DNA of 64,000 nucleotides from Psychrobacter cibarius. Lineage in GTDB: Bacteria; Pseudomonadota; Gammaproteobacteria; Pseudomonadales; Moraxellaceae. A program made the translations under genes and the position numbers. Where the stretch lies: assembly GCF_016107535.1 (NCBI RefSeq), contig NZ_JABASQ010000002.1, forward strand, positions 248,001-312,000, read 5' to 3'. The number at the start of each line of letters is the position of its first letter. Positions within the stretch are counted from its first letter, which is position 1. This document shows, in pieces, positions 10,876 through 22,331 of this stretch. Under the pieces are notes generated by a model, which ran no database searches, had not been told where the DNA came from, and saw nothing but the letters and a program-made list of their open reading frames with translations.

Positions 10876-11388
10876 AAAGTATCCTTGTTAATTTTTAAAA
10901 TTGATTTTTAATTACCGTTTATTTTTTAATTGTCATTTTGATTTTTGAATAAATATCTTGATACGGCTGCTATTGAGTGAAGTGAGTGATTTGATCGTTA
11001 ATGACATTTCTGTCGCTTTAACGAAATAGCAATAAATGAAAAGTTGCGTCATTATATCATTTTGTTTTTGGCTACGCTGAAGGCATCAAGAGATTTTGGT
11101 AAATGAGTGGTGTTTAAAAAGGGCTGGACAGTTAAAATGCCTTTGCGTCATAGCCACTCACCATGATCGATGAAATGCGTTATAGTTATGGCAATATATA
11201 GGTACGGCAATAACAAGAACCATTAAATTTTATCATGGGTAGGCAGTTATTATTTTTAAAATGACGATAGCTTTGAAATGAGAATAGCTTTGAAATGAGC
11301 ACAGCCCCTAAAAAAATTATGATTGGCTAACACCGCTTACCGCCGCTATTGATTCATAGTGCAATTTTCTGTAGAGAGTAAAGCTAGC
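10876..11388. other. Divergent intergenic region, cysM / hybrid kinase
   Basis: 513 bases carrying both divergent promoters, not assigned to exact hexamers. Near 11267-11299 there are two copies of a 16-base unit, ATAGCTTTGAAATGAG, at a 17-base period, close to the kinase start. A GTG at 11359 is in frame with the kinase but has no ribosome-binding site. No RNA gene was recognised. Confidence 0.5.
11267..11299. repeat. Two-copy 16 bp direct repeat
   Basis: ATAGCTTTGAAATGAG occurs at 11267-11282 and again at 11284-11299, identical in both copies. It lies about 90 bases upstream of the kinase ATG, where an activator or repressor could bind. Function is inferred only from position. Confidence 0.7.
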
Positions 11389-14300
11389 ATGGCATACAAA
11401 AAACGTTTTGATACTAGCAGTGCGTATGGCCAGTTGATTATATTGGTGTTTCTACCCATTTGTATCTTGGCAGCGGTGGGCGGTATTTTGGTCTTTTATG
11501 AGACCATGCGTGCCAGCAATTCCGAACAAGAAGTATTGGCGGAGGCGGTGCTGATTCGTTATACCCCAGCGATTGCAGAGCTAATCCCTGAGCTGTTAGC
11601 GCAAGAGCGCCAGCAAGCAGACGGCGAACCCAATGCTGATGGCGAAGTCAGAGCAAATGATGCCACTCAAACGACCATCACGAAGCTTGAGGAAATTCAA
11701 GATAAGCTGGGTCGTATGCAGTCCGAGCAACATGTACAGCGAATTGCGATCATCAATGAAAGTAATCAGGTGCTCGCCGCAGTCGGTTATGGACTGAACG
11801 AAGCATGGCCTGCAATAGACACAACAAAGAATTTTTTATCGCAGCAACCAACGCCTATTGGAACCGCTTATGGCAGTGTATTAGGAGAGTTTGAAGGACA
11901 AAAACTGTGGCTGCTCGTCGATATGGACAATGAACCACTCTATATCGCCCGCTACCGTATCGCCATGGCATTAGTGATTACCGGCTTGTTCACCATTTTG
12001 ATTTTATTGCTGAGTTTAAACATTTATTCAAAGCGCTGGATAGCACCAATTTATGAGCTGCGTTTGCAGTTGCAGCGTACCCATGTCGACAATTTGTATC
12101 AGCCTATTCCCGTTGAGTCAGATGGTGAGCTAAACTTATTGCAGCAAGACTTGGTCAAAACGTTACGCCGCTTGCATAGGAGTTTTCAGGAATTAAAAGA
12201 CCATGCCGAGCAAACCGAGGATGATTTGCGCCTTGCGTTTGATGAGATGGAAATGCAAAACATCTCTATTCGTAATGCACGTGATGCGGCAATTTCAACC
12301 AGCCAAGCCAAATCGGCGTTTTTGGCGAATATTAGCCACGAGCTGCGCACGCCATTAAACAGTATCGATGGCTTTATCAATTTGCTAGCAAGGCATGGCG
12401 AATTGAATCCTGAACAAGATTTGTACGTGCAAACCATACGTAAGTCATCAGCACACTTGCTTGCCTTGGTTAACGATGTTTTGGATTTCTCTAAGATTGA
12501 AGCAGGCAAGCTGGTACTTGACCGTCATGAGTTTGACCTTTATGACACCATTTATGACGTGGTCGATATGCTTTCGCCTGTATCCGCAGAAAAAGGTCTG
12601 CGCATGGCGGTGCTGTTTTATAATGATGTGCCGATGCGTATCAATGGCGATGCCCTGCGCCTCAAGCAAGTATTGACCAATATCGTCGGCAATGCGATTA
12701 AATTTACCGACAGTGGCGATGTGGTGGTGCGTGTCAGCTTGGATGATCATCGTGATAATTATCTCATGATCAGTGTGCAAGACAGCGGTAAGGGCATCTC
12801 TTTAGCTGATCAAAAGATGCTGTTCCAAAGCTTTAGCCAAGGTGACCCTTCAATCACTCGTCAGTATGGCGGCACAGGGTTGGGGCTCGTTATCTCCAAG
12901 CAATTAACGCGGCTGATGGGCGGTGATATTGGCTTTCATGATAACGCTCAAGAGAATATTGCCAATCAGGGCGCGACGTTTTGGTTTCGGATGCCAGCAC
13001 ATGTCGATGTGTTGGAAGCCGCTACTGGTCAGACAATTGAGCTACCGGTCTTGGCTCCATTGGCGAGTGAGACCGATGAGTTTAATGTATTGGTATGGAT
13101 CAATCATACCGCCTCTATCCAAGTGCTCAAAGCCAGCTTGCAATATTTGCCGATTAAATTGACCCAAGCCAACTCCTTACCGGGCGTACTTGAGTCATTA
13201 AAAGAGCATGGTAATTATTGGGATTGGGTCATCGTCGATGATGATACCCAAGACGATATGATGGCGTTACTCAAACAAATTCGTCTGCATTACCAAGGCA
13301 AGCTTGCGGTATTTGGTTATCAAGTTGCTGCCGATCAAGCATTACTAAATCGTTATCATGCCAATATTTTGTATGAACCTTTAGACAAAAGACAGCTCTA
13401 TGCCATGCTCGACACCCAAAATCGCAGTACCAAAAAAAGCGTGCAAGAACCGCGCTGGACAGGGGTGACGGTACTGGCAGTCGACGATCATCTGCCCAAT
13501 TTGTTGGTGCTCGATGCATTACTTAGTGAGCTTGGTATTCAGGTCATCACAGCGAGTAGTGGTTTTGACGCCATAGAAATTATCAGCAAACAACAAACCA
13601 AAAATCTTAAAACCACAAAGAATGATAAGCAAAGTCTGTCGAATAAAACGCAAATCTCTAAAGCTGAAACGCGCGATGAGGTGAATAAAAAATCAAATAG
13701 TACGCTTTATGAAGAGATGAATACCGATGATAAAGTCGCTATTCAGGATAAAGGACATATTGATCTAATATTCATGGACATCCAAATGCCGCGTATGTCA
13801 GGGCATGAAGCCGCAAGACAAATTCGTAATATTGAAAATGATGATAACCGTATCCCGATTATTGCGTTGACTGCACATGGTTTGGCTGATGAGCGAGACA
13901 AACTGATCGCCAGTGGCATTAATGACTATGTAGGTAAACCCATTAGCCAGCCTCAGTTGTTACAAGTGCTGCAAAAATGGCTTGGACGCACAACGACAAT
14001 GCCGCAGTTAACAGCGTTGCCTGCTACCAATCTGCACAGTACGGATGTGCACAATACTGATGTGCAGGTTATCGATTTATCAAAAGAGAATTCACACTCT
14101 ACCGACTCACAAAATAGGGAGGCTGAAACGTATTCAACGTGGCCATCAGACTCTACAACCATTGCTTATCCTATGGTGAAAGGGGATGAAAATAACCGTC
14201 ATAGCGGTTCTAATACAATCAATCAGCCAAAAATAACGCGTCCTTTATCATTGAAGAAAATTCGTGATAATTACTTGCGAGATAGCCAACCTCGTGAGGA

Positions 14301-14937
14301 TTATAGACGCGAAACACCGCGCGACACCCAGCCACGCTATGAAAACTTACGCTTATATAAACAAGGACAGTCGCCACTATTAAAGCCATCGGAAACACCG
14401 ATAAATAGTGCTCACGATGGAGTGGCAATGCCTACAGACTCCCACACATATGCGCAAGAAACAAAGGGTTGGGACAGCAGTCACCACCATTTAAGCCATC
14501 ACTCTTTGGGGGCTAATGAAGGTGATGGGTTTGCTATTTTAGATTGGCAAGACGCGTTGACCCGCTCAGCGAATAAGCCCGACTTGGCAGCCAAGCTTAT
14601 CATTATGATGCTCGATACTATTAATGATGAAAAGCAGGCGCTGACGCAAGCGTGGGACGCCCGTGATCGCAGTATGCTAGCGCAAATTGCCCATCGCATC
14701 TTAGGCGGCAGTCGTTATACTGGTGTGCCGCAATTACGTCAGGCCAGTCAAGACCTAGAAGATAAATGCTTGCTGAATGTCCAACACACCACCCCTGCGC
14801 AGTTTGCCATGCTTGAGCCATATTATGCCGCATTAATAACAGCGTTAAATAATTTGCAGGCGCTGGATTTATCAGCCTATCCTCAGCTCAATTATCATCG
14901 TTTGAGTGAAAATGATATGACGTGGAAAATGATTTAG
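11389..14937 (+). CDS. gacS: Hybrid sensor histidine kinase, GacS/BarA-like
   Basis: Tripartite membrane sensor kinase, 1182 residues from ATG 11389. The start is chosen for the GAGAG about 11 bases upstream; a GTG at 11359 would add 10 residues. TM1 is about 10-38, a periplasmic segment follows, TM2 is about 190-212, then HAMP. The HisKA H-box NISHELRTPLN has its His at 317. The ATPase boxes are NIVGNAIKFT, DSGKGI and GGTGLGLVISKQL. A degenerate receiver-like stretch follows, then a true receiver with VDDH and the phospho-acceptor Asp797 in FMDIQMPRMSG. A C-terminal Hpt domain has His1102 in AHRILGGSR. The true receiver carries an inserted polar loop of about 55 residues, and a 170-residue disordered linker precedes Hpt. 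Synteny with cysM-rlmD-relA matches Pseudomonas gacS. The partner GacA is not in the window. Confidence 0.88.
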   Translation: MAYKKRFDTSSAYGQLIILVFLPICILAAVGGILVFYETMRASNSEQEVLAEAVLIRYTPAIAELIPELLAQERQQADGEPNADGEVRANDATQTTITKLEEIQDKLGRMQSEQHVQRIAIINESNQVLAAVGYGLNEAWPAIDTTKNFLSQQPTPIGTAYGSVLGEFEGQKLWLLVDMDNEPLYIARYRIAMALVITGLFTILILLLSLNIYSKRWIAPIYELRLQLQRTHVDNLYQPIPVESDGELNLLQQDLVKTLRRLHRSFQELKDHAEQTEDDLRLAFDEMEMQNISIRNARDAAISTSQAKSAFLANISHELRTPLNSIDGFINLLARHGELNPEQDLYVQTIRKSSAHLLALVNDVLDFSKIEAGKLVLDRHEFDLYDTIYDVVDMLSPVSAEKGLRMAVLFYNDVPMRINGDALRLKQVLTNIVGNAIKFTDSGDVVVRVSLDDHRDNYLMISVQDSGKGISLADQKMLFQSFSQGDPSITRQYGGTGLGLVISKQLTRLMGGDIGFHDNAQENIANQGATFWFRMPAHVDVLEAATGQTIELPVLAPLASETDEFNVLVWINHTASIQVLKASLQYLPIKLTQANSLPGVLESLKEHGNYWDWVIVDDDTQDDMMALLKQIRLHYQGKLAVFGYQVAADQALLNRYHANILYEPLDKRQLYAMLDTQNRSTKKSVQEPRWTGVTVLAVDDHLPNLLVLDALLSELGIQVITASSGFDAIEIISKQQTKNLKTTKNDKQSLSNKTQISKAETRDEVNKKSNSTLYEEMNTDDKVAIQDKGHIDLIFMDIQMPRMSGHEAARQIRNIENDDNRIPIIALTAHGLADERDKLIASGINDYVGKPISQPQLLQVLQKWLGRTTTMPQLTALPATNLHSTDVHNTDVQVIDLSKENSHSTDSQNREAETYSTWPSDSTTIAYPMVKGDENNRHSGSNTINQPKITRPLSLKKIRDNYLRDSQPREDYRRETPRDTQPRYENLRLYKQGQSPLLKPSETPINSAHDGVAMPTDSHTYAQETKGWDSSHHHLSHHSLGANEGDGFAILDWQDALTRSANKPDLAAKLIIMMLDTINDEKQALTQAWDARDRSMLAQIAHRILGGSRYTGVPQLRQASQDLEDKCLLNVQHTTPAQFAMLEPYYAALITALNNLQALDLSAYPQLNYHRLSENDMTWKMI

Positions 14938-17843: not shown

Positions 17844-18728
17844 ATGATGCAGTTATATCGAGTGTTACCAATTGTATTGAGTGTTGGCCTGTTTGGCTGC
17901 GGTAACTCTTCCACTCAAGAAAATGCCAATTCGACTGGTACGCCAGTAACAGAAAATAAAGATAATTTTGTCAGTAATTTGCCTGATACGGCACCAACAT
18001 TAAAGGTCGCTATGACGGGTGATTTACCACCTTTCTCATTTCAAGATGACTATGGCAATATGCAGGGCACGGACGTTGATTCCATTAGAGCTATCGGCGA
18101 GGAGCAAGGCTTTAAAGTCGAGTTTTATAAAGAAACTTGGCAAGATATGTTCGATAGTGTGGAGTCAGGAAAACGTGATTTAGCTATTTCTGGTATCTCT
18201 TATAAAGATGATCGTGCGGTAAGATATGGTCTATCAACGCCTTACTTTTTTAACCCAGCTACCATCATGTACTTGGAAGGTAAGTTTGATATCAAAGGCT
18301 TAAACGATATAAAGGGTCTAAAAACTGGTACGTTGGCAGGTTCTAAAGAAGAAGATACTCTAAAACAGATGGGTAGCTCGGTTGAGTTGGTTTCAAGATC
18401 TACTGCATTTTTGGCTTATCAGGACTTAGTACAAGGTAAGACTGATGTTTTCTTATACGACATGCCAGTGCTGCAGTACATCATAAAAGGTTATCCAGAA
18501 CATAAAGTGAAGATTGTACCTTATGAAGCGGCAGACGCACCTTCAGCGCAACAAGTCGTATTAATGGCAAAAGAAAATACTCAGTTGATTAATACGGTTA
18601 ATGAGGGTATTGCTAAACTGAAAGCAAAAGGGACATTTAAGGAAATTGAAGCGCGCTGGTTAGGTGAGGCTGTACCTGCATCTGCTGATAAGAGCAATTC
18701 TGATACTAATACTACGCAATTGAACTAA
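17844..18728 (+). CDS. Solute-binding lipoprotein, family 3 (amino-acid type)
   Basis: Periplasmic-type binding protein anchored as a lipoprotein. Residues 1-19 form a lipoprotein signal ending in the lipobox LFGC, with Cys19 or 20 depending on which of the two initial Met codons is used. An Asn/Thr/Ser-rich linker follows to about 50. The SBP_bac_3 fold starts at LKVAMTGDLPPFSFQDDYG and continues through GTDVDSIRAIGEEQGF, AISGISYKDDRAVRYGLSTPYF and GLKTGTLAGSKEEDTLKQMG. It is 294 residues. No permease or ATPase gene is adjacent. Instead, 12 bases downstream starts a membrane CheA-like kinase, so I infer a sensing role, handing ligand-bound state to the kinase, rather than uptake. Ligand unknown; polar amino acids are typical of the family. 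Confidence 0.85.
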   Translation: MMQLYRVLPIVLSVGLFGCGNSSTQENANSTGTPVTENKDNFVSNLPDTAPTLKVAMTGDLPPFSFQDDYGNMQGTDVDSIRAIGEEQGFKVEFYKETWQDMFDSVESGKRDLAISGISYKDDRAVRYGLSTPYFFNPATIMYLEGKFDIKGLNDIKGLKTGTLAGSKEEDTLKQMGSSVELVSRSTAFLAYQDLVQGKTDVFLYDMPVLQYIIKGYPEHKVKIVPYEAADAPSAQQVVLMAKENTQLINTVNEGIAKLKAKGTFKEIEARWLGEAVPASADKSNSDTNTTQLN

Positions 18729-18740
18729 GGAATTCTGAAG

Positions 18741-20936
18741 ATGGCAACCACTCCCAATGTTGACAATAAGCGCTATCAAGGTCTGATCATTTCAATTGCA
18801 CTATTTTTATCGCTCATCGGTGCTTTGTTAGCCTTTACGTTCTATACCTCAAACTTATTAGAAAGAAATACCGCTTTAATTGACCAAACCAACCAAGTCG
18901 CTAATAGCGCGCAGGCGGTAATTAAAGATTTATTTGACTTAGATAATAGCTATGGCGAAGATACGAACTCTCCGCATATTCAGCGCGTTTTGGAGCGTTT
19001 GGAGGAAAATACGGCGTTGATTACCAGCTCTATTGCTGCTATTGAGCAAGGTGCAACGATCACTGACGTTGATGGCAAAACTTATGATCTGCCAAAGATT
19101 GACAGTAACGCACAAGTAAACATTACCGCGGCTAATGAGCAGTGGAAAGCGTTAGAGCCTAAGATTCAAGCATATCTCAAAGATGCTGATAATATTATGG
19201 TTTCCTCTGAAGATGATCTGACCCAAGCCGTTGAACAAGCCAAGACGTCAAGTCTATTGATTAACGATTCGTTAGATAATTTGACCAAAGATGTTTTTAA
19301 TAGTGCCGAACGCCAAGCGACGACCATTCGTCTTATTCAGGTACTTGGTGTTGCCGCCATCTTTACCTACTTTCTAATTTTTGTATTCTTCTTTGTACGC
19401 CGTTTACGTGAAACCGATGCTGAAGCGTTCGCTGCTCGTCGCGAGACACAAGAGATTATGGAAACGGTAAATACGGGTCTATTCTTACTTGATAAAGACT
19501 TGAATATTGGTCAGCAGCATTCTCGCGCACTGAATGATATTATCGGTGAGGACAGATTGTCAGGAGAGAACTTTACTAACGTTTTACGTGGGCGTATTTC
19601 TGATAAAGATCTGAAAACCACACAGCAATTTATTGAGCAGCTTTACAATCCACGCGTTAAAGAAAAATTGGTAGATTCTCTCAATCCACTGCACAAAGTC
19701 ATGCTACACAACAATGCTGGTGATAAAGCACAGAATAATCGCTTCTTAGACTTCAAGTTCTCACGTGTTTATGACAACAAAGACATTGCCCGTATTTTGG
19801 TCAACGTTAACGATGTATCGGATGCCGTATATTTAGAGCAGCGTCTAGAAAAAGAGCGCTCGCAAAACGACATGCAGATTGAGATGCTCACCACTATCTT
19901 GAATGTAAATCCAAAAATCATTAATGAGTTTATTGATAATACTCAGATGCATATTGAGAAGATGAACAATATCTTGAAAAATCCTGGTAGCTCACAATAC
20001 GAGCTTGAGGGCAAACTAAAAGCCATTTACCGCGAAATGCATAGCTTAAAAGGTGAAGCTTCTGCGCTAAAACTGCACAGCTTTACTAAAATTGCCTCAG
20101 ATGCGGAAGACAAACTGCACGCATTGCAAAACCAAGGTCAATTATCTGGTAACGATTTCTTGCCATTGGCCGTACATTTGGATGACTTGTTAAGCTTATC
20201 AAATACCATTGCAACGTTAGGTGAGCGTATCAACCGCTCAGCACCAGCAGCCGCAAAATCTAGCGTATCAGCAGCAATTTCTGAAAGTCAGTCAATTGCC
20301 AGATCGGCTACCAGCTCAAGTAATGGCATGGCCACTGATGGTGGTTTGGACATCAATTTGGGTAGTGATGCAGACGATGCAAATAATGATCACTTGGTTT
20401 TTTATAAAGACTTTGCCGATGATATCGCAACTAGGCAAGGCAAACAGGTCACGCTCAAAAGCCTGACATTAACCCAAGCCAATATACCAGAGCATCTGGT
20501 AAAGCCGATTAAAGAGATTAGCATTCAGCTACTACGTAATGCTGTGGTACATGGTATTGAAGCGCCAAGTGTTCGTCAGACGACGGGTAAAGCAGTCGTC
20601 GGTACGATTGATTTAGAGGTGCAAGACAGTGGCGCAGATGTGACGCTGATTGTGCAAGATGATGGTCAAGGTATTGATTATGACAGCATTCGTGCCAAGT
20701 TAAGCAGTGATGGTCGTTTTAGTACGGAAGAAGCTAGCCAGCTCAGTCAGGGCGATTTGCTCAAGCAACTATTTGTATCGGGTTTCTCTACCCGAGACGA
20801 CGCGGATGAAGATGGCGGACGCGGCGTTGGTCTCGATATTATCAAAGCAAAAGTAAAAGAGTATGGTGGCAAGCTGAATGTAAACAGCGAATTTGGTCAG
20901 ATGACACGGTTTGTGGTTACTTTACCCAAAGCTTAA
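18741..20936 (+). CDS. Membrane-bound CheA-like histidine kinase (Hpt + HATPase, no CheW domain)
   Basis: 731 residues. TM1 is about 13-35. A periplasmic helical domain of about 160 residues follows, then TM2 at about 197-219. A PAS-like segment (about 238-360, TGLFLLDKDLNIG) leads through a coiled stretch to an Hpt domain whose H-box REMHSLKGEASALKL places the phospho-His at 434. A Ser/Ala-rich linker (about 500-545) precedes a CheA-type ATPase, with LLRNAVVHGIE near 597, DDGQGID near 638 and GGRGVGLDIIK near 693. As in CheA, His is on an Hpt domain rather than a HisKA helix. Unlike CheA there are no P2 or CheW-like domains, and it has its own membrane sensor. The start has GGAATTC 8-12 bases upstream and lies 12 bases after the lipoprotein gene. 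Its likely phospho-acceptor is the CheY-like gene that follows. Confidence 0.88.
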   Translation: MATTPNVDNKRYQGLIISIALFLSLIGALLAFTFYTSNLLERNTALIDQTNQVANSAQAVIKDLFDLDNSYGEDTNSPHIQRVLERLEENTALITSSIAAIEQGATITDVDGKTYDLPKIDSNAQVNITAANEQWKALEPKIQAYLKDADNIMVSSEDDLTQAVEQAKTSSLLINDSLDNLTKDVFNSAERQATTIRLIQVLGVAAIFTYFLIFVFFFVRRLRETDAEAFAARRETQEIMETVNTGLFLLDKDLNIGQQHSRALNDIIGEDRLSGENFTNVLRGRISDKDLKTTQQFIEQLYNPRVKEKLVDSLNPLHKVMLHNNAGDKAQNNRFLDFKFSRVYDNKDIARILVNVNDVSDAVYLEQRLEKERSQNDMQIEMLTTILNVNPKIINEFIDNTQMHIEKMNNILKNPGSSQYELEGKLKAIYREMHSLKGEASALKLHSFTKIASDAEDKLHALQNQGQLSGNDFLPLAVHLDDLLSLSNTIATLGERINRSAPAAAKSSVSAAISESQSIARSATSSSNGMATDGGLDINLGSDADDANNDHLVFYKDFADDIATRQGKQVTLKSLTLTQANIPEHLVKPIKEISIQLLRNAVVHGIEAPSVRQTTGKAVVGTIDLEVQDSGADVTLIVQDDGQGIDYDSIRAKLSSDGRFSTEEASQLSQGDLLKQLFVSGFSTRDDADEDGGRGVGLDIIKAKVKEYGGKLNVNSEFGQMTRFVVTLPKA

Positions 20937-20998
20937 TTAACAACAGTAGGTATATTGTCAAGGACGACAAACACTTCATTAAAGGTAATAGATCAGTT

Positions 20999-21361
20999 AT
21001 GCATAAGTTAATGATTGTTGATGATTCAAATATTATTAGAAATCGTATTCAACGCGCGTACGATTCAGGGCAGTTTATGCTGGTTGCGACGGCAACCAGT
21101 GGTGTTCAAGCCATTGAAAAGTTCAATGTCCATCGTCCTGATGTAATCACCATGGACTTGACCATGCCACAAATGGACGGACTTGAATGCATTGAGAAAA
21201 TCATTGCGATTGACCCTGAAGTACGCATTTTAGTGGTGTCAGCACTGTCTGATAAAGCCACTGGCATTGAAGCATTGTCGTTGGGTGCCAGCGGATTTTT
21301 GTGCAAGCCTTTTTCAGAAGAAGAGCTTGTAGAGTCTTTGTATGAGCTAATGCAAGACTAA
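20999..21361 (+). CDS. CheY-like single-domain response regulator
   Basis: A 120-residue receiver without output domain. The acidic pair is Asp8/Asp9 (MIVDDS), the phospho-acceptor is Asp53 (TMDLTMPQMDG), the switch Ser is Ser81 (VVSALSD) and the conserved Lys is Lys103 (LCKPFSEEEL). All key residues are intact. It is 62 bases after the kinase gene and 29 bases before the first cheX-like gene. The natural reading is that the kinase phosphorylates it and the two CheX-like proteins dephosphorylate it. With no output domain, it should act by binding a partner protein, not identified here. Confidence 0.9.
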   Translation: MHKLMIVDDSNIIRNRIQRAYDSGQFMLVATATSGVQAIEKFNVHRPDVITMDLTMPQMDGLECIEKIIAIDPEVRILVVSALSDKATGIEALSLGASGFLCKPFSEEELVESLYELMQD

Positions 21362-21390
21362 ACCATTCAACGACTTAAGTAGATGTCATT

Positions 21391-21840
21391 ATGAAAGAAC
21401 AAAAGCTACAGATTTTTTTAAGTATTATTAGTAATTATTTTAATCAGTTTGGGGGCGAGGAGCTTGTCGCTGATACCCCATATCTGTTAGAGAACAAACA
21501 GCCAAAAGTTCATGATTATACGGGTGTGATCGGTATATCGGGTGGACAAAAAGGCGTGGTGTATTTTTCCGCAACCCGTCAGTTATTGTCCGCTATACTG
21601 GATAGCATGGGTGAAACGGATAAAAGCGATGAGAATTATATCGATTTGGCTGGTGAAGTGGCCAATACAATCGCTGGTAACGCGCGTAAAGAGTTTGGCT
21701 CAGAGTTTCATATTTCTGTGCCGTTTGTATTTAAAGGCTCTCCACAAAGTATTGTGTTGCCGAATGATGAGCGTTCTTTTATCATTCCCATCACTTGGAA
21801 CTCGCAGATAGGCGAGATTGTGGTCTGTTTGCAGGATTAA
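21391..21840 (+). CDS. CheX-like phosphatase, copy 1
   Basis: 149-residue protein of the CheC/CheX/FliY phosphatase superfamily, which removes phosphate from CheY-P. The E-x-x-N catalytic pair of the family is present: Glu89 and Asn92 in AGEVANTIAGNARKEFG. YTGVIGISGGQKGVVYFSA (about 43-61) is the preceding beta-hairpin. Only one ExxN helix is present, as in CheX (CheC has two). It is adjacent to a CheY-like receiver and followed 41 bases later by a paralogue, so a heterodimer or two specificities are both possible. The gene start has no strong ribosome-binding site, so translational coupling to the regulator gene is possible. Confidence 0.87.
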   Translation: MKEQKLQIFLSIISNYFNQFGGEELVADTPYLLENKQPKVHDYTGVIGISGGQKGVVYFSATRQLLSAILDSMGETDKSDENYIDLAGEVANTIAGNARKEFGSEFHISVPFVFKGSPQSIVLPNDERSFIIPITWNSQIGEIVVCLQD

Positions 21841-21881
21841 CGTTGCTGCCACCGCGTCATAAAGATGGATATTAATATATT

Positions 21882-22331
21882 ATGGTTAAAGTAGAAAAAT
21901 TGGGTGTGTTTCTGAGCTCAATCAATGCATTTTTTGCACAAATTGATGGCTCGGAAGTGTCCATTGATACCCCTTATTTAAATCATAACAAGAGTGCTGT
22001 TGGTTATGATTATAGCGGCGTTATCGAGATATCAGGGCCTATTGAAGGCTGTGTGTATGTGAGTGCGCCAAGCGTGATGTTGCGAGAGGTCATAAAAGTG
22101 ATGGGCGAGCCTGACTCATCGATCACGATGATGAAAGATCTGCTCGGTGAGATGGCCAACACTATCTCTGGTAATGCTCGTACTGAGTTTGGCTCAGAGT
22201 TTATTATCTCGCCGCCGCATATTGTTGAGAGCGCACCAAGCGTGTCTTATTTGCCAAAAGATCGCCAAAGTTACGTCACGCCATTTACGTGGCGTGGGTA
22301 TAAAGCGGTCATTGGTATCTGTATAGCTTAA
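21882..22331 (+). CDS. CheX-like phosphatase, copy 2
   Basis: 149-residue paralogue of the preceding gene with the same layout. The catalytic pair is Glu90 and Asn93 in LGEMANTISGNARTEFGSEF, and YDYSGVIEISGPIEGCVYVS matches the first copy's beta-hairpin. Shared blocks at DTPYL and GNAR-EFGSEF indicate tandem duplication, and the divergence elsewhere shows it is old. A terminator follows the stop by 30 bases, closing the signalling cluster. Confidence 0.87.
   Translation: MVKVEKLGVFLSSINAFFAQIDGSEVSIDTPYLNHNKSAVGYDYSGVIEISGPIEGCVYVSAPSVMLREVIKVMGEPDSSITMMKDLLGEMANTISGNARTEFGSEFIISPPHIVESAPSVSYLPKDRQSYVTPFTWRGYKAVIGICIA

Follow-up and report, generated by a model that had tools for sequence, protein, structure and literature searches.

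A membrane-bound CheA-type kinase encoded with a solute-binding lipoprotein, a CheY-like receiver and CheX in Psychrobacter: a probable chemosensory-like pathway free of receptors and CheW

How does a kinase with a CheA-type catalytic core signal when neither a chemoreceptor nor CheW is encoded beside it? The question is raised by a five-gene cluster of Psychrobacter cibarius at positions 17844..22331 of a 64,000-nucleotide stretch of contig C22 (NZ_JABASQ010000002.1, positions 248,001 to 312,000, forward strand), a stretch referred to throughout as the window. The cluster encodes a solute-binding lipoprotein, a membrane kinase, a CheY-like receiver and two CheX proteins. It probably specifies a CheW- and receptor-free pathway with a CheA-type core in which ligand is sensed by the lipoprotein and signalled to the kinase.

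All five open reading frames (ORFs) are intact, 12 bases separate the lipoprotein gene from the kinase gene (18728 to 18741), and each protein exceeds the curated Pfam cut-off for its named family. The coordinates, the gap and the family assignments given in a preliminary description of the window are therefore borne out. The features of the cluster are:

17844..18728, + strand: solute-binding lipoprotein, family 3 (class I); Pfam SBP_bac_3, 114 bits, 4e-33.
18741..20936, + strand: membrane kinase of 731 amino acids (aa); Pfam HATPase_c 60 bits and Hpt 32 bits; AlphaFold2 model; Foldseek matches to CheA P4.
18846..19334, + strand: periplasmic helical domain of the kinase, aa 36-198, the exchanged part; models, DNA breakpoints and PilJ-N matches in relatives.
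19476..19814, + strand: PAS-like domain of the kinase, aa 246-358; a mixed alpha/beta segment in the model, with a weak PAS_8 match, below cut-off, in relative L066.
20040..20042, + strand: phospho-accepting His434 of the Hpt domain; H in 164/164 aligned kinases.
20406..20933, + strand: CheA-type P4 ATPase domain of the kinase, aa 556-731; phmmer to CheA, 4e-26, and Foldseek.
20999..21361, + strand: stand-alone CheY-like receiver of 120 residues with phospho-site D53; Pfam Response_reg, 100 bits, and conservation.
21391..21840, + strand: CheX 1, 149 residues, E89/N92; Pfam CheX, 77 bits, 1e-21.
21882..22331, + strand: CheX 2, 149 residues, E90/N93; Pfam CheX, 71 bits, 8e-20, and conservation.

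AlphaFold2 was used to model the kinase from 33 sequences (mean predicted local distance difference test score of 81). The model runs from a long helical periplasmic domain through the PAS-like domain and Hpt to P4, and sequence and model together place membrane helices at about aa 10-35 and 199-222. Pfam gave no match to P2, P3 or CheW-type domains at E 0.001 and no HisKA-type dimerisation/phosphoacceptor domain, with Hpt in its place. Foldseek matched the P4 domain to CheA P4 structures with E about 1e-12, and the template modelling (TM) scores on the target were 0.74-0.86 for P4-only CheA chains among the matches listed. The conservation sets for kinase, receiver and CheX count some genomes twice. 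The 164 aligned kinases (152 distinct) all keep His434, N600 and H604 of the N-box, and D640, D641, G642, G644, G693, G695 and G697 of the G-box; Phe682 of the F-box is F in 137/164. The preliminary description had named His434 as the Hpt phospho-histidine, assigned a CheA-type ATPase and reported neither a CheW domain nor P2, and all of these points hold. Its account of two membrane helices, Hpt and ATPase stands as well, and what it missed is the PAS-like domain and the kinship with PilJ-N. The kinase thus has a built-in sensor and lacks a CheW-type coupling domain, which supports the main point of the earlier proposal that the kinase itself senses.

The receiver and CheX proteins retain the residues expected of them, again as had been described. 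D53 and S81 are present in 171/171 receivers (127 distinct sequences), which puts a Ser at the position of CheY Thr87, and D8, D9 and K103 are present in 169/171, the other two being gaps. The E-x-x-N pair occurs in 241/241 CheX sequences (186 distinct). Above the family cut-off and with this pair in place, CheX 1 and CheX 2 are both predicted CheX phosphatases.

The sensory end of the kinase is a helical domain. PilJ-N (PF13675) was matched by Pfam in relatives L066, L061, L052 and L112 and not in the window kinase itself, and relative L071 carries dCache_1. Several relatives have the motif NLAGRQRMLSQRM, which the window kinase has lost. Modelled alone, the window sensor matched helical sensors such as Vc1313 and NarQ weakly (best Foldseek E 0.006).

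In the lipoprotein, the ligand-binding part spans aa 52-275. The lipobox Cys19, presumably the site of lipidation, and Arg124 and Asp206, which we take to be amino-acid-binding ligand contacts, are kept in 68/68 aligned lipoproteins. The latter two align with the Arg and Asp of amino-acid-binding relatives. Their conservation makes an amino-acid-like ligand a fair guess, and the ligand is probably an amino acid or a relative of one.

Lipoprotein and kinase sensor vary together. The 88 kinase loci were aligned and 77 from the genus were used for class counts; the five genus loci dropped from 82 were cut at contig ends (L164, L167) or had broken kinase genes (L170, L172 and L178, one with its parts about 1.8 kb apart; the L172 assembly is 86% complete). 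Class I periplasmic domains were paired with class I lipoproteins in 57 loci and class II with class II in 7; class III had no lipoprotein in 8, and single loci paired other with other and other with none. The remaining three have a class I kinase with a shortened or broken lipoprotein frame (L013, L018, L031). There were no class mismatches in the 77 loci. The eight class III loci and L042 showed no trace of the two queried lipoprotein families within 1600 bases upstream. A quick same-genus tree built from PAS-Hpt, receiver and the two CheX proteins required 11 changes of class, and its well-supported branches force 7 between class I and the rest. Distances were compared in 63 loci. The partial correlation between kinase periplasm and lipoprotein binding part was r = 0.88 (0/999 permutations as high); the values were 0.00 for the ATPase domain (503/999) and -0.02 for PAS-Hpt (620/999).

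DNA comparisons locate the edges of the exchanged block. Locus L149 is identical to the window in PAS-Hpt, receiver and CheX1 (each 100%) and 99% identical in CheX2, with 49% identity in the kinase periplasm and 36% in the lipoprotein binding part. It carries a class II block, and its PAS-Hpt, receiver and CheX parts are identical to those of L009-L012. Profiles in 75-base windows for L012 vs L149 gave 81-99% identity until about lipoprotein codon 50 (the first, edge window was 28%), 36-67% inside the block, whose last window reached 75%, and 95-100% from about kinase codon 200 on, apart from one window at 89%. These edges recur in L026 vs L059, where identity drops to 55-71% ahead of the lipoprotein gene and is 87-100% past the block. 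In L144 vs L036 the lipoprotein is missing, the left flank is 88-97% identical and the right edge lies near kinase codon 225-250; L140 vs L173 shares this right edge and has no similar left flank within the stretch. The lipoprotein binding part and the kinase periplasmic part are exchanged together, as one cassette on a constant kinase-receiver-CheX chassis.

Two further patterns of variation were noted. Lobe 2 of the lipoprotein is more variable than lobe 1 within class I (subclass Ib is 36-61% identical to the window over aa 136-233), and L055 vs L056 gave 98% in the kinase periplasm, 80% in lobe 1 and 52% in lobe 2. The pattern resembles diversification of ligand binding while the docking part stays fixed. 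In L003-L014 the ATPase domain (aa 555-731) is 83-84, 92 or 100% identical to that of the window, with PAS-Hpt at 98-100%, a spread that suggests a second exchanged segment.

Ahead of the kinase, different lineages have binding lipoproteins from three Pfam families. SBP_bac_3 is the family at the window locus. Peripla_BP_4 was found by Pfam in Moraxella and other loci of the same family (L043, L046, L047, L118), and a profile built from five such proteins added L122, L124 and L188. DctP occupies the position in three Wenzhouxiangella loci, whole in L127 and L129 and as a fragment at a contig end in L128. Because two of the three may have a distant fold in common, the families are described as different and not as unrelated. 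Four of the other upstream same-strand ORFs listed within 300 bases were checked and proved to be ordinary genes: rho (L099), nadA (L090, L095) and a gene for a PepSY protein (L081). The use of three families in one slot, the concordance in 77 loci and the sharp-edged block exchange together back the suggestion in the preliminary description that the lipoprotein is a co-sensor. Two variations on the arrangement were seen. L043 has two kinase-receiver pairs in tandem, with a Peripla_BP_4 lipoprotein before the first and none listed before the second. In several loci of the genus the lipoprotein gene is preceded by another of family 3, as in L102 (L102:1779-4341), or by part of one at the edge of the stretch; partial copies occur in L147, L150, L152, L153, L168 and L058.

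The pathway that we favor starts with the lipoprotein, which would be anchored in the periplasm and bind a small ligand, probably the amino acid or relative proposed above. It would then dock on the periplasmic helical domain of the kinase. Docking is predicted to alter autophosphorylation of His434, with the membrane helices and the PAS-like domain relaying the change. The CheY-like receiver would then accept the phosphoryl group from the kinase, and CheX would strip it from the receiver to reset it. Type IV pili are one candidate output, since the one further che-type cluster detected in the genome resembles Pil-Chp.

The distribution of the genes defines which part of this pathway is constant. 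At a threshold of E 1e-30 the kinase was found in 99/299 Moraxellaceae genomes, 82 of them in the genus of the window. CheX is present in 84/105 genomes of that genus, and all 82 kinase genomes are among the 84. The PAS-Hpt part occurs in 12/369 genomes of a class sample that includes the window's own genome, and no relative was found in viral contigs. A scan of named genomes with a profile of five closer sequences returned 55 loci, some two per genome, from Zhongshania, Reinekea, Cellvibrio, Marinobacter, Steroidobacter, Wenzhouxiangella, Arenicella, Thauera, Comamonadaceae, a Desulfobulbaceae metagenome-assembled genome and others. Kinase, receiver and CheX occur together in 48 of the 55, with a split or fragmented kinase frame in two (L084, L134). 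The other seven comprise three loci at or near contig ends that lack the other genes and four Moraxella loci without CheX. Two CheX genes were present in only 2/48, both Psychrobacter, and no locus outside Moraxellaceae showed a second CheX. With the lipoprotein also absent from 8/77 genus loci, the conserved unit is kinase-receiver-CheX and not the five-gene set taken as the unit in the preliminary description.

A possible but less probable account is that the kinase is an accessory input to Pil-Chp that adjusts type IV pili by phosphorylating its own receiver or those of PilG/PilH type. Searches of the genome for CheW, MCP (methyl-accepting chemotaxis protein), CheR and CheB gave 2, 1, 1 and 1 matches, all within about 11 kb of contig C76 (50.6-61.7 kb), which upholds the earlier report that the window cluster lacks a chemoreceptor, CheW, CheR and CheB. 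The single MCP match adjoins CheW, and the run of frames on C76 (125, 120, 176, 476, 330, 2302 and 334 aa) has what we take to be the Pil-Chp layout; these searches revealed no other che-type cluster. The accessory-input account draws support from this, from the 33% identity of the receiver to a PilG-like protein, and from the presence of CheW in all 30 genomes searched, which were reached through 31 named loci; in 7/30 CheW matched just two frames, one of them short and the other long and ChpA-like. Against it, co-occurrence with the ChpA N terminus was not significant in the class sample with the window's own genome left out (6/11 kinase genomes vs 122/357 kinase-less genomes, Fisher p 0.20).

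We consider it unlikely, though somewhat less so than outright decay of a chemotaxis system, that the lipoprotein is a common orphan nutrient-binding protein whose only connection with the kinase is genetic linkage, with the kinase sensing directly, as its PilJ-N relatives may, and the exchange reflecting gene order. Several observations favor this explanation or count against ligand reporting by the lipoprotein. The kinase lacks a recognised lipoprotein in the eight class III loci, in L042 and in nearly all named loci outside Moraxellaceae, where, judged by upstream same-strand ORFs, a binding lipoprotein adjoins it only in Wenzhouxiangella. The lipoprotein gene adjoins the exchanged part of the kinase, so linkage can move both in one recombination event and mimic co-variation. 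The classes also depend on threshold: periplasmic classes I and II merge at 50% (class II domains are 46-49% identical to that of the window), and class III, lumped in the concordance count, splits into three clusters at 55-60%. Among 55 class I loci the partial r with the kinase periplasm was 0.58 for the signal/linker, 0.58 for the tail and 0.55-0.56 for lobe 1; since lobe 1 does no better than signal/linker or tail, correlation cannot show contact. Contact through lobe 1, suggested at first, is weakened by the same result. Finally, a Pseudomonas study reports that the products of neighboring binding-protein and kinase genes were tested and did not bind, so neighboring genes need not be functionally linked (PMC11113362).

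Set against these points, no mismatch occurred in 77 loci even though some breakpoints seem to fall inside the lipoprotein gene (lobe 2 differs on its own in L055/L056), and three Pfam families of lipoprotein fill one slot. No ATP-binding cassette (ABC) permease was recognised on reading the neighboring ORFs, for which no permease profile search was made. The preliminary description held that finding the kinase elsewhere without the lipoprotein would count against its proposal; such kinases exist, and within the genus the absence accompanies a different sensor domain.

The kinase might instead descend from a trimmed CheA. In a P4 tree the kinase-family domains split from all 27 sampled CheA/ChpA domains with branch support of 100/100. 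The CheA sample came from genomes that hold the kinase or lie within its order. The tree is unrooted, the two rows labelled HK being kinase-family P4 domains from the same loci and not an outgroup, so it cannot say whether the kinase lineage predates CheA. Six kinase branches in it are long, two joins connect branches of this kind, and the rows L222 and L223, labelled CheA, group with ChpA. The separation means that the kinase does not look like a trimmed CheA, and the 'reduced' route of the preliminary description is not sustained. A degraded chemotaxis system, with a drifting CheA that has lost P2, P3, P5 and its receptors, would fit the 3/82 broken genus kinases and the sporadic 12/369 occurrence, and is very improbable given the kept catalytic residues, an operon kept across distant groups and the P4 separation, long branches notwithstanding.

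The favored pathway, with the lipoprotein reporting to the kinase, resembles known systems in parts. It shares the P1-like Hpt histidine, the CheA-type P4, a CheY-like receiver and CheX with MCP-CheW-CheA systems, including Pil-Chp. Unlike them, the window cluster has no MCP, CheW or CheR/CheB, and its kinase, in which no P2, P3 or P5 was found, bears its own membrane sensor and a PAS-like domain. TorT-TorS and LuxP-LuxQ are binding-protein-dependent sensor kinases. There, as in the window, a solute-binding protein gene adjoins that of a membrane kinase with a periplasmic domain, but the window kinase has an Hpt-P4 core in place of HisKA, its receiver is stand-alone and without an output domain, and CheX is in the operon. 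NarQ and PilJ-N sensors are akin through the PilJ-N matches in relatives and the NarQ fragments among the best, weak Foldseek matches; the pathway differs in the motif lost from its kinase and in the added lipoprotein. No description of this gene set was found in the open-licence PubMed Central (PMC) literature, judged by titles and abstract openings. The chances seem even that the cluster represents a new class midway between two-component and chemosensory systems, in which a single membrane CheA-type kinase stands in for the receptor array, the remaining steps fall to CheY and CheX, and sensing is done by a plug-in cassette of lipoprotein and periplasmic domain, swapped by recombination, into which binding proteins from three Pfam families have been drawn.

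If the favored pathway is correct, a CheA-type kinase can function when receptors, CheW and arrays are all absent, a point relevant to the origins of chemosensory systems and to what the array contributes. Strains that have naturally exchanged sensors while the signalling core stayed the same would also offer a ready design for studying how a binding protein communicates with a membrane kinase. A 2016 genome paper reports cheX and cheY in 16 of its Psychrobacter strains, with other chemotaxis and flagellar assembly genes absent save cheR in some (PMC4754876). The kinase-receiver-CheX pathway is a likely place for the cheX and cheY of those strains.

A scan for promoters and terminators found nothing beyond shuffled controls. 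Downstream of kinase-receiver-CheX, the Arenicella loci L119 and L126 carry an ammonium transporter gene and an unknown gene, and the Steroidobacter loci L101 and L109 carry a gene for a TonB_C protein; these are possible hints to output or ligand. Elsewhere in the window, 11359-14937 encodes a large hybrid histidine kinase of the BarA/GacS type, as judged from reading its sequence.

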